Origin: an uncultured Pseudomonadota bacterium | Lineage (GTDB): Bacteria > Myxococcota_A > UBA796 > SXON01 | Direction of reading: 5' to 3' | Assembly (NCBI GenBank): GCA_903921785.1 | Contig: CAIXRH010000272.1 | Span: 1-38,357 of the forward strand | DNA: 38,357 nucleotides | Part shown: in pieces, positions 1,403 to 31,275 of the stretch | How the letters are laid out: each line of letters starts with the position of its first letter | Numbering within the stretch: the stretch's first letter is position 1 | Notes under the pieces: generated by a model | Databases searched by the model: none | What the model was told of the DNA's origin: nothing | Seen by the model: only the letters and a program-made list of their open reading frames with translations | Translations under genes and position numbers: made by a program

Positions 1403-1408
1403 TAGAGT
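1403..1408 (+). promoter_or_regulatory. Candidate -10 box (TAGAGT) of the MopE-like gene
   Basis: TAGAGT fits the TANNNT form of a sigma70 -10 element. It ends six bases before the ATG at 1415, so transcription would start at or next to the start codon and the mRNA would be leaderless. No purine-rich ribosome site separates it from the ATG. I see no convincing -35 box 16-18 bases upstream, so this rests on the -10 box and its spacing alone. Confidence 0.35.
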
Positions 1409-1414
1409 GCGGCG

Positions 1415-13591: not shown

Positions 13592-13685
13592 GGGCGAAGG
13601 GTACCCGATCGAAGGGGCCTGTGTCACCCGGCGGATGCCGGATTGTCACGGGCCCTCGCGCGCGGCGTCGGGGTTAGGCGTGGGC

Positions 13686-15275: not shown

Positions 15276-15281
15276 TACACT
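15276..15281 (+). promoter_or_regulatory. Candidate -10 box (TACACT) for the lipoprotein at 15288
   Basis: TACACT ends six bases before the GTG start, the same spacing as TAGAGT before the MopE-like ATG. No ribosome-binding site lies between, so a leaderless message is suggested. Upstream, CGTCACGGAG (15251-15260) and CGTCACGAG (15262-15270) form a direct repeat about one helical turn apart, covering the -35 region. This could be an activator site. Confidence 0.38.
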
Positions 15282-15287
15282 CCCAGC

Positions 15288-16289
15288 GTGACGCTCCTGT
15301 TCGTGCTCGCCGCTTGTACCGCCGACGTTGGCGGACCGACCGGGGCGGATCCGGAAGACTCCGGCGCGCCGACCGAGAGCGGCGGCGGCACCGACACCGC
15401 TCCCACCCCGGACAGCGGCGACTCGGGCGACTCCGGTGGAGACACCGGGCCCGCTCCGTCGCCTCCCGCGTGCACCGTGTGGGGGGCGCCCGAGCAGACC
15501 GGCGTGGTCACGGAGCCCACCCTCAACGAGATCTCCGGGGTCGTGCCATCCGTTCAGAACCCAGGGGTGCTCTGGGTGATCGAGGATCACGGCAACGAGG
15601 CCGCGGTCTACGCGCTCGATGCCACCGGCGCCCTCCTCGCCACGCTGGTGCTCGACGGCACCGACAACGTGGACATGGAGGACCTCGACCTCGCCCCGTG
15701 CCCCGAGGGCACGTGCCTCGTCATCGCGGACACCGGCAACAACGCTCACAACCGCACCGACCTCGCCCTGGTGGTCGCGCCCGAGCCGCTCCTCGATGGA
15801 GTGACCCCCGAGCTCCACGCCGAGGCGGTGCGCTACGGCTTCACGTGGCCGGAGTCGGAGGACAACGAGGCGCTCTCGCACACCGACGACGGTCGGTTCC
15901 TGCTCGCGTCCAAGCGGCAGGACAAACTCTCGGCGATCGCGTCGCTGCCCGCCTACGTCGACGGTGCGGTGGCGACGGTGATCGCCACGGTCCAAAGCGC
16001 GAGCGAGGAGGACGGCAGCGGCGGCGGCGCGGCGACCGCCCTCTCGATGTGGCCGGACCAGCACGCGCTCCTCCTTCGCACCTACCAATACTCCTGGGAA
16101 TTCCCGCTGGTTGACGGCATCGACAGCCTCGCCGGCTCCACGCCGGTGGAGCTCCCGACGCCCATCATCCCCCACGACGAGGGCGCTGCGTACGACGCGG
16201 TGAACCGTGGGTACTGGACCATCCCCGAGGCGCCCATCGACGGCGTCTCACCGGTGTGGTGGGTGCCGTGTGTGGACGGGCTCGGATGA
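15288..16289 (+). CDS. Propeller-like surface lipoprotein, paralogue of the MYXO-CTERM protein at 30340-31275
   Basis: 333 residues from GTG. MTLLFVLAAC is a short lipoprotein signal (Cys10), followed by a Gly/Ser/Asp/Thr linker to about residue 58. The domain shares a run of landmarks with the product of 30340-31275: EISGV against EASGL, a turn with DHGNEAAVYALD against DSSGAASLYQFD, GTDNVDMEDLDLAPC against GATNTDWEDIAVGAC, and CLVIADTGNNAHNR against CVFIADIGDNDEVR. The last has the look of a Ca-binding loop in a beta-propeller blade. No enzyme motif is apparent; phytase-like or esterase-like propellers are possible. It should be an outer-surface protein. Confidence 0.75.
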   Translation: MTLLFVLAACTADVGGPTGADPEDSGAPTESGGGTDTAPTPDSGDSGDSGGDTGPAPSPPACTVWGAPEQTGVVTEPTLNEISGVVPSVQNPGVLWVIEDHGNEAAVYALDATGALLATLVLDGTDNVDMEDLDLAPCPEGTCLVIADTGNNAHNRTDLALVVAPEPLLDGVTPELHAEAVRYGFTWPESEDNEALSHTDDGRFLLASKRQDKLSAIASLPAYVDGAVATVIATVQSASEEDGSGGGAATALSMWPDQHALLLRTYQYSWEFPLVDGIDSLAGSTPVELPTPIIPHDEGAAYDAVNRGYWTIPEAPIDGVSPVWWVPCVDGLG

Positions 16290-16391
16290 GCTGTGGCGGC
16301 GCTGAAAAGTGTTCGCGCCCCCGCTCGCGCCGCGCGCCCGGCGGCCGGGTGAGTTAGCGGGCCTGTCTACGCGTGCCGGCGGCCTGTCCGC

Positions 16392-16421
16392 TTGACAGCG
16401 CGGCCCCATTTCTCCTACAAC
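16392..16421 (+). promoter_or_regulatory. Sigma70-type promoter of the FHA/kinase operon
   Basis: TTGACA at 16392-16397 is a perfect -35 box, and TACAAC at 16416-16421, 18 bases away, matches four of six -10 positions. Transcription would start near 16428, giving a leader of about 20 bases with GGAG (16435-16438) nine bases before the ATG at 16448. It is the best housekeeping promoter in the window. Confidence 0.6.
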
Positions 16422-16447
16422 GCGATTCCCCTTCGGAGCTCCTCGCC

Positions 16448-17539
16448 ATGGACAAGGCTGAACTGCTGGTCAACCTCAACGCGAACATCGGGAAGTACGA
16501 GCAGCACCGGCAGTACATCGAGAAGGCGAAGGCGCAGGCGGCGAAGTTCAAGCCGGACGTCGTGGAGAAGGTCATCCTCGACCACGAGATCAAGTCCAGC
16601 GACGTCGCGGACAAGGTCGCCCCCCTCCTCCCCGACCTGCGGGCCCTCGTGGCCGGCCTCGATGCGGAGAAGTCGGGCATCGTGGCGTCGAAGGGAACGG
16701 TGGATGAGGAGATCCAGGAGCTCGAGCTCCGGCAGATGATCGGCGAGCTCTCCGACGCGGACTTCGAAGCCCAGGTGGCGGACCTCCGGGCCAACGCCTC
16801 CGGCGCCAACGACCGCATCGCCGCGATCGACGCCGACCTCGCCGAGATCAACGGCGCGATCGACCGCTGGGCCACCCTCGCGGGCCCCAACGGCCACTAC
16901 GCCGCGCCCGCGGCCGCGCCGGTCGAGCCCGAGCCCGAGGTGGCCGCGATCGTCGAACCTGCGGAGGGCGAGTACGCCGAGCGTAGCGAGATCAAGGAAG
17001 ATGTGAGCTCGATCTTCAGCGGCGGCGAGGCCCCGGCCACGGTCCGCGTCGGCGATGCCGACGAGATCGCGATCGAGGCTGGCGAAGTCGGCGAAGAGGC
17101 CGGCGACATGGTGAGCGCCGAGGTGCAGTTCTCCGTCGGCGGCTCCAGCAGCGAAGTGGAGATCGAGATCGGCGGCGACGACGTGAAGCCCGCCGTGGAA
17201 GTGAGCCCCCCGGCCGCGGCCGTGGAGAGCGATGGCGCCCAGCGCCGCGCCCTGCTCATCTACCAGGAGAGCACGGCCGAGGAGCAGATCTACCCGTTCA
17301 CCAACGACCAGCTCACCATCGGGCGCGGCCGCGAGAACGACATCCAGATCAAGAACGACTCCAAGGTGAGCCGCTACCACTGCAAGCTGTTCCGCCGGGG
17401 CAACAACTTCTACGTGGAGGACATCAAGTCTTCCAACGGCACCCTGGTCAACGGCGAGCTGATCACCGACCGCCGCCTCTTCGGCGGGGAGGAGATCGTG
17501 GTCGGCGAGACCTACTTCCGCTTCCGGATCATGGAGTGA
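16448..17539 (+). CDS. FHA-domain protein with N-terminal coiled coil
   Basis: 363 residues. Residues 1-145 are helical and charged with heptad-like spacing, probably a coiled coil. Residues 150-260 are an acidic Ala/Pro/Glu/Val linker. Residues about 275-363 are an FHA domain with the phosphothreonine-binding residues in place: IGRGRENDI (Arg293), SRYH (Ser308, Arg309, His311) and SSNGT (Asn330). FHA domains read pThr, so this cytoplasmic protein probably responds to Ser/Thr kinase signalling. It is first in an operon with a histidine kinase 16 bases downstream and a receiver protein, linking pThr and phosphorelay signalling. The ATG at 16448 is preferred to an upstream in-frame GTG (16373), which lies before the promoter. 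Confidence 0.88.
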   Translation: MDKAELLVNLNANIGKYEQHRQYIEKAKAQAAKFKPDVVEKVILDHEIKSSDVADKVAPLLPDLRALVAGLDAEKSGIVASKGTVDEEIQELELRQMIGELSDADFEAQVADLRANASGANDRIAAIDADLAEINGAIDRWATLAGPNGHYAAPAAAPVEPEPEVAAIVEPAEGEYAERSEIKEDVSSIFSGGEAPATVRVGDADEIAIEAGEVGEEAGDMVSAEVQFSVGGSSSEVEIEIGGDDVKPAVEVSPPAAAVESDGAQRRALLIYQESTAEEQIYPFTNDQLTIGRGRENDIQIKNDSKVSRYHCKLFRRGNNFYVEDIKSSNGTLVNGELITDRRLFGGEEIVVGETYFRFRIME

Positions 17540-17555
17540 CGAGCCTCCGACCGGC

Positions 17556-19856
17556 ATGAGCGCCACGCTTGTCGCGCTGCTGGTCGGGGACGACCCGCGG
17601 ACCCTCCCCTTCCTCGAGGCCGGGCTCCGCGGGCAGGGTTGGGACGTACGCACGACCGCCACCGCCGATGAGGCGCGTGGCGTTCTGCTTTCTGGGGGGG
17701 TGGACGCCGCGCTGATCGACGAGTCCCTCGTCGACGAAGAGGTCGGCGCCTTCGCGGGCGAGGTGCGGGCGATCCTCCCGCTGGTGGCCCTGCTGCTCAT
17801 CGTGCGCGCCCCGCGCCTGGAGGTCGACCCGCTGAGCCTCGGCTTCGACGATGTGGTGCTCGCCGGGGGGGACCCGGCGGAGCTCGACTGGCGCCTTCGG
17901 ATGCGCCGCGGCGAGGTCCGTCGCCTGGGCCTCACCCGCGAACGCGAGCGGTTCCTCCGGGGCGTGGTGCGGGTCGCGGACCTGGTCACTCCCCACGCGG
18001 ACGTGCCCACCCTCGCGGCCACGCTGGCTCCGGCGCTCCTGGCGCTCCCTGGCGTGGAGGGGGTCCGCGTGGAGATCGACGCCGAGGCCCCGGGGGACCC
18101 GCCGCTGGTCGTCCTCGAGATCGGCCGCCTCCCGGTGAGCGGCGCCGAGCGCGGGACGCGCCTCACCGACGTGCCGTTGCGCGGCCTCGCCGGAGGGCGC
18201 GTACAGCTCAGCCACCGCGGCGAAGCGCCAATGGACGGCGAGGTCCGCGACGCCCTGGGCGCGATCGTGGGCACCGCGCTCTCGGGCGCCCGGCTGTTCG
18301 CCGCGCTCAAGGATCGGCAACTTCGACTGGAGCGTGGCTACGTGGATCGCCACCGGAAGCTCTCACGGGTGAGCACCCGGCTCGAGCGGCTCTCCGAAGC
18401 GCGGGACAGCTTCCTGGCACTTTTGAGCCACGATCTCCGCAGCCCGCTCGCGGTCGTCCTCGGGCAGGTGCAGCTCGTGGAAGAAGGATTCGTGCCCCCG
18501 GGCGGCCTCCCCAAGGTGGCGAGCACGATCCGTCGGCAGGGGGAGCGGATGCTCCAGATGGTCGAGGACCTGCTCGACCGCTACCGTCGCGATGACGCCG
18601 TACGCAGCGTCTCCGAGACGGGCGACGCCGCGAGGATCGTCTCGGAGATGGTGGAGAACCTGCGCCCGCTCGCCGAGGCTCGCCAGCAGTCGCTGCGCCT
18701 GACCGCCCCCAGCGCCGCGCCCATCGAGACCGACATCGCCGCGATCCGCGAGGTGCTCGCGAACCTGCTCGAGAACGCGGTGCGGCACAGCCCGGTCGGG
18801 TCCACCATCGACGTCGAGGTCACGGTGCGAGACGCCCGCGCGGTCGTCACGATCCGCGACGCGGGGCCCGGGTTCGGCGCCTCCGCCGCCGCAGGGGGGA
18901 GCGGCGCCCAGATCGGGCTGCGCGCGAGCACGCGGATCGTCGCCGACGCCGGCGGGAGCTTGCGTACCGCGACCGCGCCCGGCGGCGGCGGGCTGGCGGT
19001 CATCTCCCTCCCGGCGGCGATCCCCCAGGCCACGGCGAGCGCGATCGAACTTTTGGTGGGCGACCCGGCGCTGCGAGAGCACCTCTTCGGCCTCTTGTCC
19101 ACCCACTGGGAAGTCCGGCAGTCCGAGAGCCTCGACGGGGCCTTCGAGCGGATGCGTCGGCAACCCCCGGCGGTGATCCTCCTTGATCAGCGGGTGGGTC
19201 CCGAGGCGATCGCGTTCCTTCGCCGCCTCAAAGCGGACGCCGAGCTCGCCGCGGCGCCGGTCATCGCCCTCGGGGACGACGCCCACGAGCTCCACGACGC
19301 CGGCGCCCTCGCGGTGCTGCGCGTCCCGGTCGACGGTCCGCTGCTCCTCGGCCACGTGCGCCGCGCGCTCCGCCTGCTCGGCGAGCTCCCCGGTCCTGGC
19401 GAGGGTGCGCTCGACGTGCTCACCGGCCTCCCCACCGCACGGGCGTTGAACCTGCGGATGAACGCGGCGCTCGAGGAGGCGCGGGAGAGCGGAACCCCGC
19501 TCCCGGTGGTCCAGGTGCGGGTGGATGAGCTCAAGCGCATCAACCATGAGCAGGGGTGGCTCGTCGGCGACCAGCTCCTCCTCTGGCTCGCGACCCGCCT
19601 GCGTGAGCGGGTGCGCCCCCACGAGACCGTCGCGCGCACCGACGCCGAGACCTTCGCGCTCGCTCTCCCCGGGAGAACCCTGGCTGAGGCCGAGGCGCTC
19701 GCCGCCGAACTTCGCGACGCGATCGGCCGCGCGCGGCCGCGTCTCGGGGTGGCACGGGTGGAGGTCCGGGTTAGCGCACGCGCCCTGGATTTGACGACGC
19801 TGGCGCTCGGAGGCGAGTCTCTCGTCGGAGCCGTCGGCAGTGGTCGGGAGAGTTGA
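17556..19856 (+). CDS. Composite histidine kinase with degenerate receiver and GGDEF-like domains
   Basis: 766 residues, no membrane segment, so cytoplasmic. Residues 1-125: receiver-like fold with Asp55 (ALIDES) but without the usual Lys. About 130-250: GAF-like region. HisKA: SHDLRSPLAV with phospho-acceptor His292. HATPase: N-box LANLLENAVRH (Asn403, Asn407) and G1 box DAGPGFG (435-441). About 497-608: a second receiver-like domain with LLDQR but no conserved Thr or Lys. About 619-725: a GGDEF-type fold (DVLTGLPTARAL, RINHEQGWLVGDQ) in which the active-site GGDEF is replaced by TDAET, so it should not make c-di-GMP. The kinase core looks active. The stop overlaps the ATG of the next gene (TGATG), implying coupled translation with its likely partner. 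Confidence 0.88.
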   Translation: MSATLVALLVGDDPRTLPFLEAGLRGQGWDVRTTATADEARGVLLSGGVDAALIDESLVDEEVGAFAGEVRAILPLVALLLIVRAPRLEVDPLSLGFDDVVLAGGDPAELDWRLRMRRGEVRRLGLTRERERFLRGVVRVADLVTPHADVPTLAATLAPALLALPGVEGVRVEIDAEAPGDPPLVVLEIGRLPVSGAERGTRLTDVPLRGLAGGRVQLSHRGEAPMDGEVRDALGAIVGTALSGARLFAALKDRQLRLERGYVDRHRKLSRVSTRLERLSEARDSFLALLSHDLRSPLAVVLGQVQLVEEGFVPPGGLPKVASTIRRQGERMLQMVEDLLDRYRRDDAVRSVSETGDAARIVSEMVENLRPLAEARQQSLRLTAPSAAPIETDIAAIREVLANLLENAVRHSPVGSTIDVEVTVRDARAVVTIRDAGPGFGASAAAGGSGAQIGLRASTRIVADAGGSLRTATAPGGGGLAVISLPAAIPQATASAIELLVGDPALREHLFGLLSTHWEVRQSESLDGAFERMRRQPPAVILLDQRVGPEAIAFLRRLKADAELAAAPVIALGDDAHELHDAGALAVLRVPVDGPLLLGHVRRALRLLGELPGPGEGALDVLTGLPTARALNLRMNAALEEARESGTPLPVVQVRVDELKRINHEQGWLVGDQLLLWLATRLRERVRPHETVARTDAETFALALPGRTLAEAEALAAELRDAIGRARPRLGVARVEVRVSARALDLTTLALGGESLVGAVGSGRES

Positions 19857-20476
19857 TGGCGCGAAAGAGGCAAGAAGGCGGTGGGCCGACGTATTTCACG
19901 ACCTTCCAGGTCGCGAAGTTCCTTGGCGTGTCCCCGCCGACCGTGGTCAATTGGGTCAATAGCGGCCTCCTCGTTGCGCATCGCACGCCGGGCGGCCACC
20001 GCCGGCTCCGTTCGGAGGACGTGGCGATGTTCGCCCGGGCGTACAATTACCCGGTTCCTCCTCAGCTTGGCGAGTCCAGCGCGCCCGAGCCCTCCGGCGG
20101 CCGCAGGGTGATGATCGTGGACGACGAGCGGGACTTCGCGCAGACCGTCGCCGACTATCTGCAGCTCAAGGGCGGCTACGAGGTCGAGGTCGCCGACAGC
20201 GGCTTCTCCGCCGGGCTCACCCTCGCCCGCTTTCGTCCGACCGTCGTCTTGATGGACATCCTCATGCCCGACATGGATGGGTTTGAGGTTCTTCGTATGC
20301 TTCGGCAGGACCCGGAGATGCGCCACACCCCGGTCATCGCCTGCACCGCCTACCGCGATCCCGCGATGGAGGAGCGCGCCCGCGCCGAGGGCTTCGACGG
20401 CTACCTGGAGAAGCCGATCAAGTTCGAGACGCTGCTGGAGCTGGTGGAAGAGTCGGCGCGAGGCGGAAAGGGCTGA
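19856..20476 (+). CDS. Response regulator with N-terminal MerR/excisionase-type HTH and C-terminal receiver
   Basis: 206 residues from the ATG that overlaps the kinase stop by one base. Residues 12-60 are a winged HTH of the MerR/excisionase kind: TFQVAKFLGVSPPTVVNWVNSGLL and the wing RTPGGHRRLRSEDV, which lie in that order at about 16-56. Residues about 84-200 are a complete receiver: Asp89/Asp90, phospho-acceptor Asp134 (LMDILMPDMDG), Thr164 and Lys186 (EKPI). The DNA-binding domain comes first, the reverse of the usual OmpR or NarL order. It probably receives phosphate from His292 of the kinase and controls unknown promoters; the 16392 promoter is an obvious candidate. A strong hairpin follows. 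Confidence 0.9.
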   Translation: MARKRQEGGGPTYFTTFQVAKFLGVSPPTVVNWVNSGLLVAHRTPGGHRRLRSEDVAMFARAYNYPVPPQLGESSAPEPSGGRRVMIVDDERDFAQTVADYLQLKGGYEVEVADSGFSAGLTLARFRPTVVLMDILMPDMDGFEVLRMLRQDPEMRHTPVIACTAYRDPAMEERARAEGFDGYLEKPIKFETLLELVEESARGGKG

Positions 20477-20505
20477 AGGAGGGTTCCCCCTCCCGGCCCT
20501 CCTTC
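20475..20505. terminator. Terminator-like hairpin after the signalling operon
   Basis: GAAGGAGGG (20475-20483) pairs perfectly with CCCTCCTTC (20497-20505), nine base pairs, around a 13-base loop. The 5' arm overlaps the last two bases of the stop codon. An alternative inner stem GGAGGG-TTCC-CCCTCC also exists. There is no T-tract. It lies between convergent genes and merges into repeat copy B. Confidence 0.6.
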
Positions 20506-20535
20506 ACCGTCGCGAGCCAAGACCAGCGTCGGCGG
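20488..20535 (+). repeat. Intergenic 48-bp repeat, copy B
   Basis: CCCTCCCG (20488-20495), 12 bases, CGTCGCGAGCCAAGAC (20508-20523, one change from A and D), 3 bases, CGTCGGCGG (20527-20535). The spacing is identical to copies A and D. It ends nine bases before the stop of xdhC, in a convergent gap. A ten-base palindrome, GCGGCGCCGC, covers its 3' end. Confidence 0.75.
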
Positions 20536-20543
20536 CGCCGCGG

Positions 20544-21332
20544 TCAGGTCAGCTTCATCAGCTCCGGCGCCCGCGTGATCCCTCGCCGGGCCCGTACCAG
20601 CTCCGCGAGCACCGAGATCGCGATCTCCTCCGGGGTCTCGGCGCCGATGTCGATCCCCACCGGCGCGCTCACCCGCGCCAGCCGCTCGGGCGAGACACCC
20701 GCAGCGCGAAGCCGTAGGTGGAACTTGGTGATCTTGGCCCGGCTGCCGATGAGACCCACCCAGGCGTAGTCGCGGTTGACCAGGGTCTCCAGGACGTCCT
20801 GGTCCAGCGCGTGGTCGTGGGTGACGATGAACACCCAGGTGTTCGGGTCGGCAGCGAGGGTGCGGGCGAAGGCGCGGGGGTCGCTCTCCACCCGCTCGCA
20901 GCCGAAGAAGCGCGCTTCGGTGTTGAGCTCGTCGCGGTCGTCGACCACCGTGACCGCCCAGCCCGCTTCGCGGGCGAACAACGCGGTCGGCCGCGCGACG
21001 TGGCCGGCGCCGAAGATCACCAGGCGATCGACGGGGCGCAGCGGCTCGATGAAAACCTCCATGGCCCCTCCACAACACATGCCGAGGTCTCGGGTGAGGT
21101 GCACCGCGTACCGGCGGGGCACCCCGGCGACGAGCGCCGCGTGGGCGGCCTCGATCACCTTCAGCTCGAAGTGGCCGCCGCCGACCGTGCCTTCGGTGCG
21201 GCCATCCGGCCAGATCACCATCCGGGCGCCGCTGTGGCGGGGCGCGGAGCCGTTCACCCCGGTGACGGTGGCCAGCGCGACCCGCTCGCCGCGCTCGGCG
21301 GCCTCGGCCAGCACTCGCCAGAGCTGCGGCAC
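20544..21332 (-). CDS. xdhC: XdhC/CoxI-family molybdoenzyme maturation protein
   Basis: 262 residues. The N-terminal XdhC_CoxI domain shows VTGVNGSAPRHSGARM and EGTVGGGHFE. The conserved MCCGGAMEVFIEP follows at about 84-96. The C-terminal Rossmann domain has IFGAGHVARPTALFAREAG and VVDDR, then HDHALD and WVGLIGSRAK. XdhC-type proteins carry and sulfurate the molybdenum cofactor and insert it into xanthine dehydrogenase-type hydroxylases. No hydroxylase subunit genes are in the window. Start is GTG, one base after the stop of the upstream amidohydrolase, so the two are one operon. Pairing with a deaminase-like enzyme suggests purine breakdown, but that is inference. Confidence 0.9.
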   Translation of the reverse strand: MPQLWRVLAEAAERGERVALATVTGVNGSAPRHSGARMVIWPDGRTEGTVGGGHFELKVIEAAHAALVAGVPRRYAVHLTRDLGMCCGGAMEVFIEPLRPVDRLVIFGAGHVARPTALFAREAGWAVTVVDDRDELNTEARFFGCERVESDPRAFARTLAADPNTWVFIVTHDHALDQDVLETLVNRDYAWVGLIGSRAKITKFHLRLRAAGVSPERLARVSAPVGIDIGAETPEEIAISVLAELVRARRGITRAPELMKLT

Positions 21333-21333
21333 C

Positions 21334-22635
21334 TCAGAGCCCGGCGCGGGCGCGGACGCGCGCCAGGGCGGCGTCGGCCTCGGCGGAGAGGGCGAGGGGA
21401 TCGACCCCGAGGGCGTGGCCCCCTTCGGCGACGAGCTGCCCAGCGATCCACACCTTCTCCACCGCCCGCCCGTCGAACTGGTAGACGACGGCGGAGTACG
21501 GGTCGCCGCCGGTCCAGAGCCGGCGCGGGTCGAGCAGCACGAGGTCGGCGAGGCGGCCCGGCTCGACCACGCCGGCGTTGAGGCCGAGCGCGGCGGCGCC
21601 TTCGCGGGTCATCAGCCCGAGGACGGTCCTCGCGTTCATCGCGGTGGCGCCCACGCGTGGCTTCTGGATGAGCGCGGCGAGGCGCATCTCCGCGAAGGCG
21701 TCCAGCCGGTTGTTGCAGGGCGCGCCGTCCGCGCCGAGCGAGACGTGCACCCCGCGCGCGAGCAGCTCGGGGATCCGCGCGACGCCGCTGGCGAGCTTGA
21801 GGTTGCTCGACGGGCAGTGGAGCAGGCGGGTGCCCGTGGTGGCGAGGAGCGCCTCCTCGGCGTCGGTGAGGTGGATGCAGTGCGCGAGCAGCACGTCCGG
21901 GCCCGACAGGCCGAGCGCGTGGAGGTGCTCGACGTTGTCGCGGCCGGTGAGCTGCCGGACCAGCTCCACCTCGTCCAGGTTCTCGCTGGCGTGGGTGTGG
22001 ACGAGGCAGCCGCGGGCGCGGGCATCGGCGGCCGTGGCGCGGAGCAGCTCGTCGCTGCAGCTCGGGACGAAGCGGGGCGCGTACGCGTAGCGGAGGCGGC
22101 CCTTCCCGTGCCAGCGGTCGGCGAGGTCGTTCGCCGAGCGCATCGACACGTCGGTCGGCTCGCTCAGCCCGGCCTCGTTCGGCCGGTCCATCTGCGCCTT
22201 GCCACAGAAGAGCCGGAGCCCCGCGGCGGCGGCCACTTCGAACACGGCGTCGGTGTGGTCGACGGTCGCCATGTCCAGGATGGTCGTGGTTCCGCCGCCC
22301 AGGAGCTCGTCCACCCCGAGGCGGGCGGAGGTGGCGGTGCTGTCCACGTCGTGGGCGCGCTCCAGGGGCCAGATCCGGGTGCGGAGCCAGTCCAGGAGCA
22401 CCAGATCGTCGGCGAGCCCGCGGAAGAGGGTCTGGACGAGGTGGATGTGGGTCTGGACGAAGCCGGGGAGGAGCCAGCGCCCCGCGCAGTCGACCTCTTC
22501 GAAGCCGTGGAGTCCGGCTCCCATCGCCACGATGGTGTCCCCCGACACGGCCACGTCTCCGTCGAAGATCGTGCCGGCTTCATCACACACCAGCACCCGG
22601 GCGTTCTTGAACACGAGGGGCCATGGGCGCTTCAT
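21334..22635 (-). CDS. Zinc amidohydrolase, cytosine/adenosine-deaminase-related (MtaD/SsnA type)
   Basis: 433 residues from the ATG at 22635. Metal and catalytic residues expected of the TrzA/MtaD branch are present: His63 and His65 (THIHL), His215 and Glu218 in THASEN, His252 (AHCIHL) and Asp303 (LGADG). LHCPSSNLKLASGV and the following NNRLDAFAEMRLAAL fit closely with methylthioadenosine/S-adenosylhomocysteine and related deaminases. The likely reaction is hydrolytic deamination of a purine or related ring; guanine or another purine would suit the xdhC neighbour. The protein is cytoplasmic. A longer open frame runs upstream to 22935 but overlaps the divergent gene, so the ATG at 22635 is preferred. 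Confidence 0.88.
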   Translation of the reverse strand: MKRPWPLVFKNARVLVCDEAGTIFDGDVAVSGDTIVAMGAGLHGFEEVDCAGRWLLPGFVQTHIHLVQTLFRGLADDLVLLDWLRTRIWPLERAHDVDSTATSARLGVDELLGGGTTTILDMATVDHTDAVFEVAAAAGLRLFCGKAQMDRPNEAGLSEPTDVSMRSANDLADRWHGKGRLRYAYAPRFVPSCSDELLRATAADARARGCLVHTHASENLDEVELVRQLTGRDNVEHLHALGLSGPDVLLAHCIHLTDAEEALLATTGTRLLHCPSSNLKLASGVARIPELLARGVHVSLGADGAPCNNRLDAFAEMRLAALIQKPRVGATAMNARTVLGLMTREGAAALGLNAGVVEPGRLADLVLLDPRRLWTGGDPYSAVVYQFDGRAVEKVWIAGQLVAEGGHALGVDPLALSAEADAALARVRARAGL

Positions 22636-22682
22636 CGCGGCCCGGCTATCACGGCCGGCGCGGACCGGGCCTCGGTGACGAT

Positions 22683-22711
22683 TTGACCACGGGCCCCTGG
22701 CCGCGTAGGCT
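22683..22711 (+). promoter_or_regulatory. Sigma70-type promoter of the BNR-propeller operon
   Basis: TTGACC (22683-22688) and TAGGCT (22706-22711) are separated by exactly 17 bases. The ATG at 22721 is nine bases after the -10 box, so the 5' leader would be only one to three bases. It lies in the 85-base gap shared with the divergent amidohydrolase operon. Confidence 0.55.
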
Positions 22712-22720
22712 GGGTCGCTC

Positions 22721-24619: not shown

Positions 24620-25281
24620 CCTTCCTCTTCCCGCTGCTGCTGTCCCTCGGCGCCGCCCACGCGGCAGACTTCGACTCGCCGGAGGCCGTGCTCGCCCAGT
24701 TCGCGGACGAGCCCTCGGTGGCCGACGTGCAGCGCATGGCGCTCGACTACAGCAAGACCGACCCCAAGTACCTCGACAGTTGGATGCGGGCGGCCAAGTC
24801 GGCCGCGGCCCTGCCGTCGCTCTCGCTGTACTACAACTACAAGAACAGCTTTGGCACGGACTACGGCTACTACACGCCGGAGGAGATCGTCGACGACAGC
24901 AAGGTCGATGGCGAGACCAGCATGACGGGCGCCGAGGCCGACGCGCTGACGTACGGGCCGTTCACCACCGCCAACGGGGTCGACATCTACCACGTGGGTT
25001 CGGTGCGTGCGACCTGGCAATTGGACGAGCTGGTGATGTCGAGCAACGAGATCCGCATCATCAGCGAAGCGCAGGACATCGTGAAGCTGCGCGACAAGGT
25101 GCTCGAAGAGGTCACCCGGCTGTACTTCGAGCGCCGCCGCCTCCAGGTGGACCAGCTCTTGAGCCCCGGCGGCGGGGATCTGAAGAAGAAGGTCGGCGAC
25201 CAGCTCCGGCTCGCCGAGCTCACCGCCGAGCTCGACGGCTACACCGGCGGGCGGTTCACCTCGTCGCTCAAGCAGAAGTAG
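24616..25281 (+). CDS. Small secreted protein, coupled to the propeller gene
   Basis: 221 residues with signal peptide MTFLFPLLLSLGAAHA. A helical N-terminal part is followed by ALPSLSLYYNYK (65-76), a Tyr-rich stretch, then long helices ATWQLDELVMSSNEIRII (about 132-149) and IVKLRDKVLEEVTRLYFERR. The end is ELTAELDGYTGGRF (201-214). The alternation of a short Tyr-rich strand and long helices resembles a piece of an outer-membrane efflux (TolC-like) fold, but I cannot assign a family. It overlaps the upstream gene by four bases and shares two sequence landmarks with that gene's C-terminus, so the two products probably work together in the envelope. Confidence 0.78.
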   Translation: MTFLFPLLLSLGAAHAADFDSPEAVLAQFADEPSVADVQRMALDYSKTDPKYLDSWMRAAKSAAALPSLSLYYNYKNSFGTDYGYYTPEEIVDDSKVDGETSMTGAEADALTYGPFTTANGVDIYHVGSVRATWQLDELVMSSNEIRIISEAQDIVKLRDKVLEEVTRLYFERRRLQVDQLLSPGGGDLKKKVGDQLRLAELTAELDGYTGGRFTSSLKQK

Positions 25282-25287
25282 GGCACG

Positions 25288-26304
25288 TCAGGGCGCGGGC
25301 GTCCAGGTCCGCACGGTGCTCGCGGCGGCAACACCGAGCACGACCTCGCGTACGGTGCTGTTGTCGTACGGCTGCGGCAGGTAGACGGCGTCCTTCCGCC
25401 AGCCGCCGATGCCGCTGCCCCACTCCAGGCCGTGGCCGTACTTGGTCGTACGCCCGGAGTAGACGGTGCTGACCGTCCCGTCCGGGGTGACCTTGTAGAG
25501 GCCCGCGGTGCTGTATTCGGCGACGTAGAGGTTCCCGCAGGCGTCCATCGCCAGCCCGTCGTGCCAGCTGCCGATGCCGGTGGCGAAGACCTCGGGCTCG
25601 CCGGTGGGCATCAGATCGGGGCCGACCGCCACCTTGTACACCGTGCCGCTGCCGATGGTGGCGATGTACGCCACGGTGCTGTCGAGGTTGAACTGGACCA
25701 TCCGCGGCGTCGACCCGCGGGGGAGCTGCAGCCAGGTGGTGAGCTCCCCCGTCGCGGCGTTCACCTTGGTGATCTCGGGCCGGCGTGAACGATAGACGTT
25801 GCCGACGTACACGTCGCCGTCGGGGCCCACGGTGATCTGGTACCCGGAGGTGAGCCCGGTGGCGAGCGTGGAGTGGGAGCCGTCGGGGCTGATGAGCTCC
25901 AGCGTGCCCTGCCCGAGGTTGGTGGCGACGAAGTCGCCGCTGGGGAGGCGGTCGATGCCCTCGGGGATGAGCCCGGGCACGAACGCGCTCGTCTTCCCAT
26001 CGTAGGTCGACGCGAGCAGCGAACGCCCGTCGGTGCCGAGGAGGTTGCCCAGGTCGTCGAACGCGACGTCGTGGTAGCCGCGCGGCCCTTCCATCTCGCG
26101 GATCGTCGGCTCGGGCAGGGCGGCGCAGTCGTATTCCACCGGTCCGGTGTCGATGATCGGGCCGGTGTCGCCGGTGTCCCCGGAGTCGGCGGTGTCTCCG
26201 GTGTCGGCCGAGTCCGCGGTGTCGGTGTCGCGGCCGTGATGCCGCCCCGTGTCGACGGAGAGGCTCGCGGTGCTGCACGCGGAGAACAAGAAAAGCGCGA
26301 CCAT
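25288..26304 (-). CDS. NHL/SMP-30-like beta-propeller lipoprotein
   Basis: 338 residues from the ATG at 26304. MVALFLFSAC is a short lipoprotein signal (Cys10), then a DTADSADTGDTADSGDTG-type linker. The rest is a six-bladed-propeller pattern with repeated landmarks: GYHDVAFDDLGNLLGTD, GIDRLPSGDFVATNL, GYQITVGPDGDVYVGN, DSTVAYIATIGSGTVYKV and WHDGLAMDACGNLYVAEY, as in NHL, SMP-30 and gluconolactonase-like proteins. It lies 32 bases after the stop of the phosphatase-superfamily gene on the same strand. The open frame reaches far upstream but there only shadows that gene. No catalytic set is evident, so binding or scaffolding at the cell surface is as likely as an enzyme. Confidence 0.8.
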   Translation of the reverse strand: MVALFLFSACSTASLSVDTGRHHGRDTDTADSADTGDTADSGDTGDTGPIIDTGPVEYDCAALPEPTIREMEGPRGYHDVAFDDLGNLLGTDGRSLLASTYDGKTSAFVPGLIPEGIDRLPSGDFVATNLGQGTLELISPDGSHSTLATGLTSGYQITVGPDGDVYVGNVYRSRRPEITKVNAATGELTTWLQLPRGSTPRMVQFNLDSTVAYIATIGSGTVYKVAVGPDLMPTGEPEVFATGIGSWHDGLAMDACGNLYVAEYSTAGLYKVTPDGTVSTVYSGRTTKYGHGLEWGSGIGGWRKDAVYLPQPYDNSTVREVVLGVAAASTVRTWTPAP

Positions 26305-26336
26305 GGAGCAGGGTAGCTCGGGGGAGGGGGCGACCG

Positions 26337-27911
26337 CTACTTCGTCGTCACCGAGTCGCCCCCGACGAGCCCCCAGTACCCCTGTGCGCGCACGGCCTCG
26401 ACCTCCTCCGGGCTCAGCGGGCGGGTCGGGCGCCCGGCCAGGCGGGCGTCGGCGTCCACCATCAACGCGAGCAGGGTCCGCACCGCGGGGACCAGCGCCT
26501 CCTTCCGGGAGATCACGAGGTTGGTGCGCTCGTCGGGATCGGCGACGAGGTCGTAGGCCTCCACCGCGAGCGTGGTGTCGGCGGCGCAGTCGGGCAAGGT
26601 GAAGCTGCCAAGCTCGGTCACGGGCACCACGACCCCGTTTCCCGCCTCCACCCAGGGGCGGTCCTTGCGGCGGCGGGTGTCGCGGAGGATGAGCTTCTGC
26701 CCGTTCGCGCGCAGCGACGCGTGGCAGGGTTCGGTGACGCTGAAGACGGGGCGTTCGACGTAGCCAGGCTCGCCACGGAGGAGGGGGAGCCAGGACTGAC
26801 CGGTCATCCGGGCGTCCACGGGGATGCCGACGCGAGTGAGCAGGGACGGGGCGAGGTCCATGCCCTGCACTTCCGTGTCCACGACGATCCCGGGCTTCGG
26901 GAGCGCCGGATCGGCCACCACCAGCGGCACCCGGAGGGTGGAGTCGTAGAGCAGGCCGTGGTCGAAGACGGCGTGGTCCCAGAGGTCTTCGCCGTGGTCC
27001 GAGGTGACGACGATCACGGTGGAGTCGGCGAGGCCGCGGGCGGCGATGTGCTCCAGGAGCTCGGCGATCGCGGCGTCGTAGGCGTGGAGGTTGCTGTCGT
27101 AGCGGGCGAGGGTCCGCACCCGGGCCTCCGCGTCGGGGACGTGCTCCCCGAGCCGCCGATAGACCTCGGTGTAGCTGGCGCCGCTCGGGTCGTCGGGCTG
27201 TACCCAGGCGTAGGGCGGGGCCATCGCGTCGGGGGTGTGGAGGTCCACCTCGTGGATCCACGCGAAGAACGGGGGTTCGGCGTGGTCGATCCAGTCGCGG
27301 ACGCGGTTGGTCGCCGGAGGCTGCCCCGGGGGCGTGACGTCCACGGTGGCGAAGTCCGAGGAGACGAAGCCCTTGACGTGCCCGGGGAGGGTGGAGCCCC
27401 AGAACACCGCGGTCTGGTACCCGTAGATCGCCAGGATGGAGGGGAGGTCGCGGGCGCCGGGGGCCTGCTTGGGGACCTTCCGGGGGGAGGCGATCGGGAG
27501 CGGGGAGCTACCGGTGAGCAGGGTGGTGACCGCCGGGAGCGTCCACCCCGACTGGGAGATCGCGTGGGTGAACGTCGCGCCGCGCTTCGCCAACGCGTCG
27601 ATCGTCGGGGTGATCGGCTGGCCCTCGCGGGTGGCGCCGACTCGGTCGGCGCGGAGGGTGTCGATGTCGATGACCACGAGGTTGGGGGCGCCGGGGGGAG
27701 GGGCCTCCGTGGCGGCGGGCGCGGTGCTCTCGGGCTTCTTCGGCTCCGGCGCTCCGCGGGGGCCACCGGGCCGTGTGCCCGGCGCCTGCGCGGGGGTGCG
27801 CACCGGTGGAGGCGGGGGGCTCGCTCCGCGGCCGTAGATCCACCAGGCCGCACCGCCCAACCCGAGGATCAAGCTGGCCGCGGCCCCGGCCGCCCGGGCG
27901 GTCGCCCTCAC
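26337..27911 (-). CDS. Membrane-anchored alkaline-phosphatase-superfamily protein (sulfatase-like, Thr nucleophile)
   Basis: 524 residues from a GTG that overlaps the upstream stop (GTGA). One membrane segment (about 7-26) and a Pro/Ala/Glu linker (30-75) place the domain outside the inner membrane. The superfamily metal site appears as DIDTLRADR (Asp82, Asp84), with nucleophile region SGWTLPAVTTLLTG and later VTSDHGEDLWDH. At the position of the sulfatase Cys/Ser (C/S-x-P-x-R) there is Thr124 in TLPAV, and the Arg is missing. It is therefore not a formylglycine sulfatase. A Thr nucleophile is typical of phosphoethanolamine or phosphoglycerol transferases and some phosphodiesterases. It is probably linked to the GT-C-like protein encoded just upstream. 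Confidence 0.85.
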   Translation of the reverse strand: MRATARAAGAAASLILGLGGAAWWIYGRGASPPPPPVRTPAQAPGTRPGGPRGAPEPKKPESTAPAATEAPPPGAPNLVVIDIDTLRADRVGATREGQPITPTIDALAKRGATFTHAISQSGWTLPAVTTLLTGSSPLPIASPRKVPKQAPGARDLPSILAIYGYQTAVFWGSTLPGHVKGFVSSDFATVDVTPPGQPPATNRVRDWIDHAEPPFFAWIHEVDLHTPDAMAPPYAWVQPDDPSGASYTEVYRRLGEHVPDAEARVRTLARYDSNLHAYDAAIAELLEHIAARGLADSTVIVVTSDHGEDLWDHAVFDHGLLYDSTLRVPLVVADPALPKPGIVVDTEVQGMDLAPSLLTRVGIPVDARMTGQSWLPLLRGEPGYVERPVFSVTEPCHASLRANGQKLILRDTRRRKDRPWVEAGNGVVVPVTELGSFTLPDCAADTTLAVEAYDLVADPDERTNLVISRKEALVPAVRTLLALMVDADARLAGRPTRPLSPEEVEAVRAQGYWGLVGGDSVTTK

Positions 27912-29623
27912 GGGGCCCCGCCTTCGACGTGCCACGCCGACGCGCCGTCGACGGTCTGGGTGGGAGGGCCGAAGCGCGCTTCCACCGCCGCCGCGCACCC
28001 GCTGGGCGCGAGCGCGTCGTGCACGACGATCCAGCGGAAGCCGAGCGCGGCCACGGAGATCGACTCGCTGCCGGGATCCACCGCTCCCGCCGCCGATGCG
28101 CCCGGGCGTGGCCGCGGCAGCCCCCCGCACGCTTCCTGGAGCGTACGCGCCTCCCCCGACGCGGCGAGCACGGCGTCCGCCGCCTCATAGTTCTCGGCGA
28201 CGGGCTGCCGATGCACGAGCTGCCACATCCAATACGGGCGGCGGCTGCCGTAGGTCTCGGGGCGGGTGTGGTTGTCGTCCACCGGGAGGTCGAGCACGGG
28301 GCCGTCCAGGGGGAGGGCGGGCGGGACGGGGAGGGGAGCGGCCATGCGCGGCCAGCGGGTGGCGGAGAGCGCCACGGAATCGCCGAGCAAAAACGCCGCG
28401 AGGAGCGGACCCAGCCACCGGAGGCCGCCGCCCGCCCCACCGGGCGGGGGTCCGGACGACCCGGACTCCGCGCCGGCGGCGGCGCCCTCGCGGGTCGGCC
28501 CGTAAATCAGCCTGGAAAGCCGAAGCTCCCCGCTCGCCACCCCGACAGAGGCCGCGGCGGCGAGCAGCACCGTCGCCGGCCCTGCCGCCCGGTACCAGTG
28601 GGTGATGAACCGGGCGCTCTCCAGGTGATCCACCAGCCAGCCCGCCGGCAATTCCACCGGTCCGCCCAGCTTCACCACCTTCCCGCCGATGCGCAGCCAG
28701 TGACCGAGCGCGAGCAGCCACAGCGGCGCGGCGATGGCCAGCCACGTCCACGCCCTTCGGCCGCCGAGCACCGCGAAGATCAGGGCGCCGACCCCGAGGT
28801 ATACGCTGGTCGATGGCGTGAAGGTCTGCGTCGAAGGGCCGAAACGGAGGAGGTCTACGCCGAAGCGCTCAACCCGATCCCACGCGCGGATGTCGGTCGG
28901 GTCGGAGAGGGCCGCGGCGCGGTCGGCCCACACGCCGAGGTGAGGAAGGAGCTGGAGGAACCTCGGGAGCACCATCGCGAGGGCGATCCCGCCGACGGCG
29001 GCGAGCACCCTCGGCCGCCGCACCCGCCACGCCAACGCCGGCTCCACCACCAAGGCGAACGCGGCGTGGTACCAGCCGGTGAGCGCGAAGATCCCCAGGG
29101 TGATGCCGGCGATCACGGCGTCACGGCGGCCGGTCGTCGGCGGTTTTGGGCTCGGCCCACGCCCTGCCAGCCCCTCCATCGCCCACAGGTGCAACGCGAA
29201 CCAGCCGAGCGGCCACGCCTCGGTGATCCCGAATTCGATCGCGCCACCCAGGAACGCCGACCAGCCCACCAACGCCATGGCCACCCAGGCTGACGCCGGG
29301 GTTCCCCCGATCCGTTCGCCGAGGAGCCAGCCGCCGAGGCAGCCCAGGAGCACGTTGGCCACCGCCATCGTGTTCCACGCGGCCGCCGGCGACACCAGCC
29401 AGCCGAGCGCGAACCACGGCAGGTTGGGCGGGTCCATGAGCGGGAGGTCCCAGCCGGCGGGGAAGTTGCCTTGGATGCCGACGAGGGCGTGGGCGAAGTA
29501 CCAGAGGTGGTTGTGGACCTCGTACGTGGGATCGCCGATCAGACCCGAGCGCGCGGGCCACAGGAAAACCGCCGTTCCCAGGACGGCGCCGATCGCGCCG
29601 AAGCGGCGCGCCGACCGCGACAC
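27908..29623 (-). CDS. Polytopic membrane protein, GT-C glycosyltransferase-like
   Basis: 571 residues with about ten to twelve hydrophobic segments and a soluble C-terminal third (from about 430). The first periplasmic loop after helix 1 has DPTYEVHNHLWYF, an acidic/aromatic motif of the kind seen in GT-C lipid-sugar transferases, and a second ITEAWPLGWFALHLW. No specific family is certain. GT-C enzymes use polyprenyl-phosphate sugars on the outer face of the inner membrane. GTG start directly follows the stop of the formylglutamate amidohydrolase gene, with no gap. Its own TGA overlaps the start of the phosphatase-superfamily gene, so the three are translationally linked. Confidence 0.78.
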   Translation of the reverse strand: MSRSARRFGAIGAVLGTAVFLWPARSGLIGDPTYEVHNHLWYFAHALVGIQGNFPAGWDLPLMDPPNLPWFALGWLVSPAAAWNTMAVANVLLGCLGGWLLGERIGGTPASAWVAMALVGWSAFLGGAIEFGITEAWPLGWFALHLWAMEGLAGRGPSPKPPTTGRRDAVIAGITLGIFALTGWYHAAFALVVEPALAWRVRRPRVLAAVGGIALAMVLPRFLQLLPHLGVWADRAAALSDPTDIRAWDRVERFGVDLLRFGPSTQTFTPSTSVYLGVGALIFAVLGGRRAWTWLAIAAPLWLLALGHWLRIGGKVVKLGGPVELPAGWLVDHLESARFITHWYRAAGPATVLLAAAASVGVASGELRLSRLIYGPTREGAAAGAESGSSGPPPGGAGGGLRWLGPLLAAFLLGDSVALSATRWPRMAAPLPVPPALPLDGPVLDLPVDDNHTRPETYGSRRPYWMWQLVHRQPVAENYEAADAVLAASGEARTLQEACGGLPRPRPGASAAGAVDPGSESISVAALGFRWIVVHDALAPSGCAAAVEARFGPPTQTVDGASAWHVEGGAP

Positions 29624-30343
29624 CTACGCGCCGCTCGCGAGCAGCGCCCGCCGAACCCGCGCCGCCACCGCTTCAGCCAGCGGACGGGTGCGCACGAGGT
29701 CCTGTCGCAGCTCGATCTCCAGGTAGGGAATCCCGTAGCGCGTTCCGTGCCGCGCGGCGCTGTAGATCAGCCCGACCTTCCCCGAGTACGGCTCGTTGGG
29801 CTCGGTGCGGAAACCCTCGCCCCGGAGGGTCTCGACCAGGCGCTCGGCCAGGTCGTCGTGCCGATCGAAGAGCACGCCCGCCTCCACGTCGCGAGGCGTC
29901 CCCCGCCAGACCGGGGTGAAGCTGTGGACAGAGAACAAGAGCCGGGCGGGCGCGGCGGCCATCGCGGCGTCCACCGCTTCGTGAAACGGCGCGTACCACC
30001 GGGCGACCCGCGCGGCGTGCTCCCCGGCGCTGACCGCGCCATTGAACGAGACCGCGCCGTCGTGGGTGTGCGCCACGATCAAGCTGGCATCGTCGGGAGC
30101 TCGGTTCACGTCGAGGACGAGGCGGCTGGTGCGCCCGAGCACCGCGGCGCTGTCTTCGACGCGGGCGAGCGCGCGGGTGACCCAGGCGGCGCCGATGTCG
30201 TAGCCCCAGTGGTCGCGCAGCAGCGCGCGGGTGGGCGCGTCGACCCGATGGCCGCGAGGGACCCGGTTGCTGGCGTGCTCACAGGTGTACACGACACCGC
30301 CGGGGCGGGCGCGACCGAGCCGCTCGACCGCCTCCGTCTTCAT
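29624..30343 (-). CDS. N-formylglutamate amidohydrolase family protein
   Basis: 239 residues. The family opening YTCEHASNRVP with metal-binding Glu22/His23 is followed by DHWGYDIGAAWVTRALA, DVNRAPDD, HTHDG, a second metal-type HSFTPVW, and the closing YLEIELRQDLV. The best-known member, HutG of the five-step histidine pathway, cleaves N-formylglutamate to formate and glutamate. No hut genes are nearby and the operon is about the envelope, so another N-acyl or peptide substrate is possible. The ATG at 30343 overlaps the stop of the upstream MYXO-CTERM gene by four bases (ATGA). An earlier start up to 30481 would run deep into that gene and is unlikely. Confidence 0.88.
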   Translation of the reverse strand: MKTEAVERLGRARPGGVVYTCEHASNRVPRGHRVDAPTRALLRDHWGYDIGAAWVTRALARVEDSAAVLGRTSRLVLDVNRAPDDASLIVAHTHDGAVSFNGAVSAGEHAARVARWYAPFHEAVDAAMAAAPARLLFSVHSFTPVWRGTPRDVEAGVLFDRHDDLAERLVETLRGEGFRTEPNEPYSGKVGLIYSAARHGTRYGIPYLEIELRQDLVRTRPLAEAVAARVRRALLASGA

Positions 30344-31275
30344 CCAGCGCGACGCCGACGGAGACCGGCCGCCAGACTGGCGAACGCCGCGGCCAACGCC
30401 GCGCCCACGCTCGCCGTGGCGCTCGCCGGCCGGGCAGAACACCCGCAGTCCGCGCACACGGGGGACCGGGTGTCGGCGCACGGGAGCTGATGCAGCTCGA
30501 AGTTCTTGCCCTCGGAGACCGAGTACAACGAGCCGTCGTCCGCGAAGTCCATCGCTTCACCCTGCTCTTCGCCGACGAAGAGCAGGTCCGCCGGGGTGGC
30601 CGACCAGTCGATGCCGCAGTCGGCCTGCCAGACCCACCCGTGTTCGTTGCTCCGCAGCGCCACGTTCAGGCCGTCGTTGGACACGGCGCCGCCGGAGATC
30701 GGCTCGCCGAGGTCGAGGGACGTCTCTTCGGTAAGCGTCTGAACACTGCCGTCACAACTCAGCGAATCTGAACGGAAAACCTTGGCCTTGCCGTCGGTCT
30801 TGGTGACGATGCGCACGGACAGATCGGGGAAGAGGAGGAGCGCCTCGGCGTCGTGGGCTTCGCCGTCTTCATACTCCAGGTCGCAGGCGGTGGCGGTGTA
30901 GCTGTCGGCGTCGGCGACCGGGGCCCGCCAGATGGTGACGTGGTCCCGCACCTCGTCGTTGTCGCCGATGTCGGCGATGAACACACATTCGCCCTGGTAG
31001 CCTTCGTCGCACGCGCCGACCGCGATGTCCTCCCAGTCGGTGTTGGTGGCGCCCTCGATCGTGATCTCCCGCAGGTAGTTCCCGAGGAGATCGAACTGGT
31101 AGAGGGACGCGGCGCCGGAAGAGTCGTTGTGGGTGAGGAAGCCGTCGGCGATGACCGCCAGGCCGGAGGCCTCCTTCGCCGGCATCTTGTCCACCTCGGT
31201 GACGAGGGCGGAGGGCGTCCACGTGGAGCAGACGGCGTCATCGGCGGCGAAGGCGGTGGCGAGGAGCCAGAGCAT
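30340..31275 (-). CDS. Propeller-like surface protein with MYXO-CTERM sorting signal
   Basis: 311 residues. A short signal peptide (MLWLLATAFA, then ADDAV) leads into a propeller-like domain homologous to the lipoprotein at 15288-16289 (landmarks EASGL, TNTDWEDIAVGAC, CVFIADIGDNDEVR, EDGEAHDAEALLL). The C-terminus has ADCGCS (Cys277, Cys279), a hydrophobic helix (about 285-304) and RRRR at 306-309. That is the tripartite MYXO-CTERM signal of myxobacteria, thought to be processed by a rhomboid-type protease and to anchor proteins at the cell surface. The start at 31275 is chosen because it begins the signal peptide directly; an in-frame upstream start would prefix a poorly hydrophobic segment. 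The gene lies 14 bases after the DUF1295 gene's stop. Confidence 0.85.
   Translation of the reverse strand: MLWLLATAFAADDAVCSTWTPSALVTEVDKMPAKEASGLAVIADGFLTHNDSSGAASLYQFDLLGNYLREITIEGATNTDWEDIAVGACDEGYQGECVFIADIGDNDEVRDHVTIWRAPVADADSYTATACDLEYEDGEAHDAEALLLFPDLSVRIVTKTDGKAKVFRSDSLSCDGSVQTLTEETSLDLGEPISGGAVSNDGLNVALRSNEHGWVWQADCGIDWSATPADLLFVGEEQGEAMDFADDGSLYSVSEGKNFELHQLPCADTRSPVCADCGCSARPASATASVGAALAAAFASLAAGLRRRRAG

Follow-up and report, generated by a model that had tools for sequence, protein, structure and literature searches.

A YjiK-like propeller pair with predicted N- and C-terminal lipid anchors in an uncultured Myxococcota_A genome

The proteins considered here, P0001 and P0002, are encoded on contig CAIXRH010000272.1 of GenBank assembly GCA_903921785.1 (GTDB lineage Myxococcota_A; UBA796; SXON01), all 38,357 nucleotides of which are called the window below; P0001 is a lipoprotein-like copy and P0002 a MYXO-CTERM-like copy of one domain. 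The closest described systems bear on the anchor and on the domain. In the MYXO-CTERM model, as set out in the relevant passages of PMC11980579, the sorting cysteine is lipidated (a proposal), the tail is cut by a myxosortase (shown for TraA) and the protein is carried to the cell surface by a type II secretion system (T2SS); the same passages state that TraA without its tail is released, that proper anchoring needs the myxosortase, and that some lipoproteins, for example pullulanase, are also exported by the T2SS. Lipoprotein signals are usually 16–26 residues long, according to the portion of PMC8689077 drawn on here. The YjiK or SdiA-regulated domain is described in the corresponding part of PMC1084347 as several NHL-like repeats, likely a six-bladed propeller, in outer-membrane proteins.

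One propeller family with two kinds of anchor

The two window proteins align over 259 amino acids with 27% identity (BLASTP, 55.5 bits, E 3e-13), and the alignment of the two anchor-class profiles (built from 49 MYXO-CTERM and 45 lipoprotein members) spans 268 columns with a probability of 100 and an E-value of 1.6e-64. The short landmarks on which the original prediction had based a common family lie in register (in P0001 and P0002 respectively, NEISG and KEASG, MEDLDLAPC and WEDIAVGAC, VIADTGNN and FIADIGDN) and thus reflect true homology. The ends of the proteins also read as that prediction had them. P0001 starts with GTG and has the lipobox LFVLAAC, whose cysteine follows a hydrophobic stretch as in signal peptidase II (SPase II) lipoproteins, 9 residues past the start; the lipobox (L-A-A-C) and the Asp/Ser/Thr linker after it are read directly. 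P0002 has a plain signal peptide and, at the other end, CADCGC, a predicted helix (residues 285–310) and RRRR, the tripartite arrangement of MYXO-CTERM proteins, with a TIGR03901 match below the cut-off.

AlphaFold models of P0002 and P0001 (mean predicted local distance difference test scores, pLDDT, of 87.1 and 82.1) support the propeller call for both. Among the solved chains compared, E. coli YjiK (3QQZ) is the best match of each, with Z 22.1 and 3.0 Å over 225 residues for P0002 and Z 21.7 and 2.9 Å over 226 residues for P0001; the runners-up are glutaminyl cyclases (Z 18.5 and 19.4, respectively). The sequence profile of our first alignment (A1, 26 members) retrieves 3qqz_A at E 6.4e-5, and a phmmer search of the PDB sequences with P0002 alone gave no match. 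By their models, both window proteins are YjiK-like six-bladed propellers. The suggestion that the fold is undescribed is therefore not borne out: 3QQZ fits both models best, and a propeller had already been proposed for the YjiK domain (PMC1084347, in the part cited above).

Thirteen residues are invariant in the 26 members (S37, G38, D51, N78, D80, E82, D83, D102, G104, R110, E144, E240 and E255, in P0002 numbering), and E35, N106, D142, K159 and T194 are among those nearly so; the conserved residues are largely identical when the MYXO-CTERM and lipoprotein classes are analysed apart. On the P0002 model some immediately precede or open strands 38–42, 81–88, 143–148 and 239–244, and others close or follow strands 45–49, 96–102, 154–158 and 250–255. 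In propellers generally, the loops before the inner strands and those after the second strands share one face, so these positions would gather on one face of the propeller as a putative metal-dependent or ligand-binding site. The invariant acidic and polar residues suggest, on the model, a site like those of phytases, lactonases or SMP-30, either of a metal-dependent hydrolase or for ligand binding.

The family is widespread. Five copies are encoded in the genome of origin (7.48 Mb, 96% complete), of which four are lipoproteins and one is a MYXO-CTERM protein; outside the window lie L002, L003 and L004, each a lipoprotein with an acidic linker. A sixth match, L006, was rejected, since its resemblance is confined to the MYXO-CTERM tail. 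At E 1e-4 the family is found in 54 of 58 genomes (this one and its nearest relatives), and phylum-wide at E 1e-10 in at least 113 of 188. Named genomes, when scanned, yielded 25 loci; by record title, two are in metagenome-assembled genomes labelled 'proteobacterium' and two are of Verrucomicrobiota kind, the remainder being mostly from Bacteroidota. We worked with 154 open reading frames (ORFs) of Myxococcota. The order, with its 54 genomes, contributed 120; the other 34 come from elsewhere in the phylum and are a non-random choice from the upper part of the match list, so that they speak for the matches listed. Three contig-edge fragments were left out, as were L020 (which contains X) from the first alignment and L141 (short) from the tree. 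By eye, seven lipoprotein copies (L079, L090, L098, L105, L122, L136 and L137) appear to contain a PKD-like domain that separates the lipobox from the propeller, and L079, L102 and L105 have two propellers within one frame.

Anchor labels divide the 154 ORFs into 49 MYXO-CTERM proteins, 93 lipoproteins and 12 unlabelled ones, three of these truncated. A stricter first script missed short leaders, and a looser version was used instead; 13 labels were set by hand (6 MYXO-CTERM and 7 lipoprotein), three ORFs were marked as truncated, and the MYXO-CTERM label of L060 is atypical. The script flagged two of the 154 (L106, at 2198–3514 of its locus, and L125) as having both anchors; their N-terminal cysteine was judged to be the domain's own conserved residue, and no protein is counted with both. 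TIGR03901 at E 0.05 matches 16 of the 49 MYXO-CTERM-labelled members versus none of the 45 lipoprotein-labelled ones (alignment A4, 45 of the 93 lipoproteins). In the first alignment, which is mostly of Bacteroidota, 8 of 26 members carry a type IX secretion system (T9SS) sorting tail. The original prediction had called for a survey of relatives for anchor type, and both anchors do recur: of the 54 genomes of the order with the family, 25 have both, 19 have lipoproteins only, 8 have MYXO-CTERM proteins only and 2 have neither. Within the genus both classes are held by 9 of 11 genomes.

These two anchors are not exchanged freely. On a quickly built tree with 153 domains (141 labelled) 6 anchor changes are required, versus a minimum of 32 and a mean of 40.4 when the labels are shuffled, which argues for old paralogous subfamilies. 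The clade of P0002 has 19 members, all MYXO-CTERM (support 99); that of P0001, which also takes in the three other lipoproteins of its genome, has 42, all of them lipoproteins. As judged from these sequences, anchor type is inherited, and an exchange is rare and then fixed. The earlier idea of an anchor swapped on one domain thus stands in that one family generally carries two anchors, and falls in so far as it implied free swapping.

Tethers, linkers and destinations

We propose that P0001 and P0002 are old paralogues of a six-bladed YjiK-like propeller, and that a cysteine-linked lipid, at opposite ends of the two, would hold them in the outer membrane. The lipoprotein copy would follow the Sec, Lgt and LspA route and hang from its N-terminus on an acidic linker that is long and flexible. 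The copy with the MYXO-CTERM tail would enter by its plain signal peptide; its C-terminal cysteine would be lipidated, a myxosortase would trim the helix and RRRR, and the T2SS would export it to the surface. Since the two termini of a closed propeller adjoin, a tether at either end should leave the working face in the same orientation, and this would explain both the family's tolerance of the two anchors and the position of the linker beside the anchor. We give this account as a whole a probability of roughly 0.6. If it holds, the pair is a natural experiment in which N- and C-terminal lipids act in one cell on a constant cargo, and anchor function becomes testable.

Linkers were measured in 84 of the 93 lipoproteins and 42 of the 49 MYXO-CTERM copies. 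In the former the median distance from cysteine to domain is 56.5 residues and that after the domain 2.5; in the latter the median from domain to sorting cysteine is 18 residues, with 20 or more in 20 of 42. Asp, Glu, Ser and Thr make up 40% of lipoprotein linkers and 37% of MYXO-CTERM linkers, Lys and Arg 2–3%. From these lengths and compositions, the acidic linker tracks the anchor rather than a fixed end of the domain.

The genome encodes candidates for the sorting machinery. Among its four CPBP proteins one passes the myxosortase core model NF040914 (110.8 bits, cut-off 100), while scoring 150.2 bits against the MrtP subtype model (cut-off 250), and GspD scores 509.5 bits (cut-off 351.35); a candidate cognate myxosortase and a T2SS are thus present together. 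The original prediction had allowed for release by the sorting protease. In the published model the tail retains the protein at the surface, so retention is expected, and release is unlikely: as PMC11980579 has it in the passages used here, TraA is freed when it lacks the tail and the myxosortase serves anchoring.

Several points weigh against our account. We infer lipidation, destinations, surface exposure, the conserved face and activity from sequence and models, and MYXO-CTERM lipidation is itself a published proposal only (PMC11980579, in those passages). The same 26 sequences stand behind both structure models, which are therefore not independent. Neither protein has a domain family at curated cut-off in Pfam and NCBIfam scans, and the TIGR03901 match of P0002 (residues 277–309, E 0.0083) has 16.5 bits, below the curated cut-off of 20, so we call the tail 'MYXO-CTERM-like'. 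Just 16 of the 49 MYXO-CTERM tails labelled by script or hand reach E 0.05 with that model, P0001's lipoprotein clade has a support of only 65, and P0002 has almost no C-terminal linker.

The same domain might instead serve two compartments, the lipoproteins being carried by the Lol system to the periplasmic leaflet of the outer membrane and the T2SS taking the MYXO-CTERM copy outside. That the classes are old, separate clades, kept together in 25 of the 54 genomes, suggests non-redundant jobs, and published MYXO-CTERM proteins sit at the surface (PMC11980579, as excerpted); however, the long acidic linkers of the lipoproteins would suit surface exposure equally well, and the T2SS exports some lipoproteins too (pullulanase, same excerpt). 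We consider this division unlikely, though a serious contender. Less probable again is that the difference is neutral, all members ending as lipid-held surface proteins whose lineages drifted to one anchor or the other. The largely common invariant residues, the proposal of a cysteine-linked lipid for both anchors and the single anchor class in 27 of 54 genomes would fit such drift; the 6 changes over 141 domains, versus at least 32 with shuffled labels, and the two classes side by side in 9 of the 11 genomes of the genus speak against it.

Putative short leaders and leaderless spacing

The proposed lipid tether of P0001 calls for a signal that departs from the usual lipoprotein pattern: it has 9 residues and no Lys or Arg, where a basic n-region and 16–26 residues are the norm. 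As an upper bound on a leader we took the distance between the lipobox cysteine and the farthest upstream ATG, GTG or TTG of its open frame. For P0001 no such codon lies upstream of the GTG, and the bound is the 9 residues themselves. A bound of 12 residues or fewer was found for 16 of 35 family lipoproteins in the genome's own taxonomic family and 12 of 35 in other families of the order (28 of 70), and for none of 15 elsewhere in the phylum among the matches listed, of which the shortest has 15. For 10 of the 70, whatever the start codon, no longer leader is possible, because the 12 codons preceding the cysteine include an in-frame stop. Putative leaders of this kind (bounds of 6–12 residues, lacking a basic n-region) were seen in P0001 (15288–15317), L146, L062, L119, L053, L087, L123, L188 and others.

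The short bounds extend beyond the propeller family. In genome-wide samples, 10 of 26 lipoboxes in the genome of origin (349,580 bases) and 8 of 25 in another species of the genus (G009, 400,000 bases) are bound to 12 residues or fewer, versus 0 of 27, 0 of 10 and 0 of 1 in three genomes that belong to the phylum but not to the class; the same bound is 17 to 24 for four annotated lipoproteins of E. coli. G042, of the same order, has 1 such lipobox in 4, and the trait may vary within the order. It is very improbable that the N-terminal cysteine is unlipidated and that such copies stay in the cytoplasm or are retained by a hydrophobic start, as leaders of 6–9 residues with no basic n-region might suggest beside the usual 16–26 (PMC8689077, in the portion cited), because the leader, lipobox cysteine and acidic stretch recur in other lipoprotein genes of this genome (10 of 26) and of G009 (8 of 25), and because in homologues elsewhere in the phylum this domain stands behind lipoprotein signals of greater length.

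A -10-like box, TACACT, ends 6 nucleotides before the P0001 GTG, and the relative L107 has the same box with the same gap ahead of an ATG. A box ending about 6 nucleotides before the start codon has the spacing of leaderless transcription. In the genome of origin 11 of 26 lipoprotein genes, and in G009 8 of 25, have a TANNNT that ends 5–7 nucleotides ahead of the chosen start (shuffle means 0.24 and 0.42, maximum 3 each), versus 1 of 37 controls and 0 of 4 in G042. Since the box played no part in the choice of start, it supports the short starts. Over all genes the signal is weaker (8 of 95 in the genome of origin and 10 of 42 in G009, where the controls gave 3 of 93, 1 of 38 and 0 of 4), because the true starts are unknown there; sites resembling Shine-Dalgarno sequences exist in genes of this genome, G009, G201 and G152. 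Transcripts of lipoprotein genes with the TANNNT box are likely leaderless, as far as sequence can indicate.

We put at about even the chance that this order exports lipoproteins with the shortest signals yet seen (6–9 residues, lacking a positive n-region and too short for a membrane-crossing helix) from leaderless mRNAs with the -10 box abutting the start, and that recognition by Sec, Lgt and LspA would differ accordingly. A search of literature listings and of passages from two reviews found no paper on unusually short lipoprotein signals or on leaderless Myxococcota. If true, such signals break the accepted minimum length for Sec and SPase II, current predictors would probably miss them, and the surface proteomes of the order are under-annotated. 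The genome has two matches to LspA, the signal peptidase II (G000:C221 and G000:C248; L153 and L154), an observation of interest beside the short signals. Asp at position +2 is rare, in 2 of 85 family lipoproteins.

Gene surroundings and comparison with known systems

Coordinates of the window features are collected in Table 1. Homologues of the further neighbours of P0001 (at 14022 and 14840) and of P0002 (at 27911, 29627, 31869 and 32841) were not found in the relatives' loci, which reach 1.5–2.5 kb only, so no operon argument can be made for P0002. CotH-family genes number 27 in the genome and are abundant across many genomes of the order. They recur beside propeller genes (in L048, L074, L091, L097, L100, L121, L132, L138, L139, L141 and L143), and 11 of 113 loci have one near the propeller versus 1.17 expected from density, a rough comparison given short flanks, kin loci and members missed by the profile. 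Conservation of the window's own arrangement, with the CotH gene two genes from P0001, was not found. Bacillus CotH phosphorylates serine-rich repeats (PMC7821199, in the part used here). By analogy, we would guess that CotH-like surface kinases phosphorylate the serine- and acid-rich propeller linkers. Elsewhere in the window, a lipoprotein-like ORF at 1406–4825 (+) contains FG-GAP repeats along with 10 metal-binding motifs of the MopE type.

Table 1. Positions of the propeller genes, their predicted parts and neighbouring genes in the window.
Feature	Position	Strand	Basis or remark
CotH-kinase-family gene, N-terminal lipobox	12332..13645	-	such genes lie repeatedly near propeller genes across the order
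-10-like box TACACT	15276..15281	+	read directly
Lipoprotein copy P0001	15288-16289	+	ORF read directly
P0001 putative 9-residue lipoprotein signal peptide, GTG start	15288..15314	+	sequence
P0001 lipobox cysteine	15315..15317	+	sequence
P0001 acidic/serine-rich linker, lipid anchor to propeller	15318..15467	+	sequence; family linker composition
P0001 YjiK-like beta-propeller domain	15471..16280	+	model m9f5741c4cb91
FHA-domain gene downstream of P0001	16358..17536	+	kept in three related loci (L062, L107, L127)
Histidine kinase / GGDEF gene	17463..19853	+	kept in L062, L107, L127
MYXO-CTERM copy P0002	30340-31275	-	ORF read directly; strand absent from the original prediction
P0002 MYXO-CTERM-like sorting tail	30349..30447	-	TIGR03901 match; predicted helix
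P0002 YjiK-like beta-propeller domain	30478..31230	-	model m54e0346ffc39
P0002 short plain signal peptide MLWLLATAFA	31246..31275	-	sequence; putative cleavage site

As to the domain, YjiK and the SdiA-regulated family (PF06977, 3QQZ) are the nearest known relatives, both models having a YjiK-like fold. The window proteins differ in that identity to 3QQZ is only 13–17%, the anchors are other, and the Pfam cut-off is missed (P0001 has 10.6 versus 21 bits and P0002 no match); PF06977 matches 3 of the 26 first-alignment members at E 0.1, with a best E of 9e-9. The phytase-like family PF13449 gives weak matches in 5 of 26 (best E 3.3e-4) and 5 of 45 family members, but in neither P0001 nor P0002 at E 1. 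The myxosortase-dependent phytase-like phosphatase model NF045638 weakly matches 8 of the 49 MYXO-CTERM members (best E 2.2e-4), although these matches may stem from the tail and not the domain.

As to the anchor, P0002 shares with TraA-type MYXO-CTERM proteins the cysteine motif, the hydrophobic helix and the Arg-rich end, in a genome with a myxosortase-core protein and GspD; it differs from them in its cargo, the YjiK-like propeller, and in a tail that scores below the curated cut-off. NCBIfam gives the name 'choice-of-anchor' to families in which one domain is found on proteins with differing sorting signals. The PVV-CTERM choice-of-anchor G model (NF051874) weakly matches 1 of 26 and 2 of 49 family members, and no NCBIfam model of this type covers the YjiK-like propeller. 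That domain nevertheless behaves as such families do, in that it carries a lipobox, a MYXO-CTERM tail or a T9SS tail, and the anchor pair in the window is a further, general case of the known 'choice of anchor' principle.

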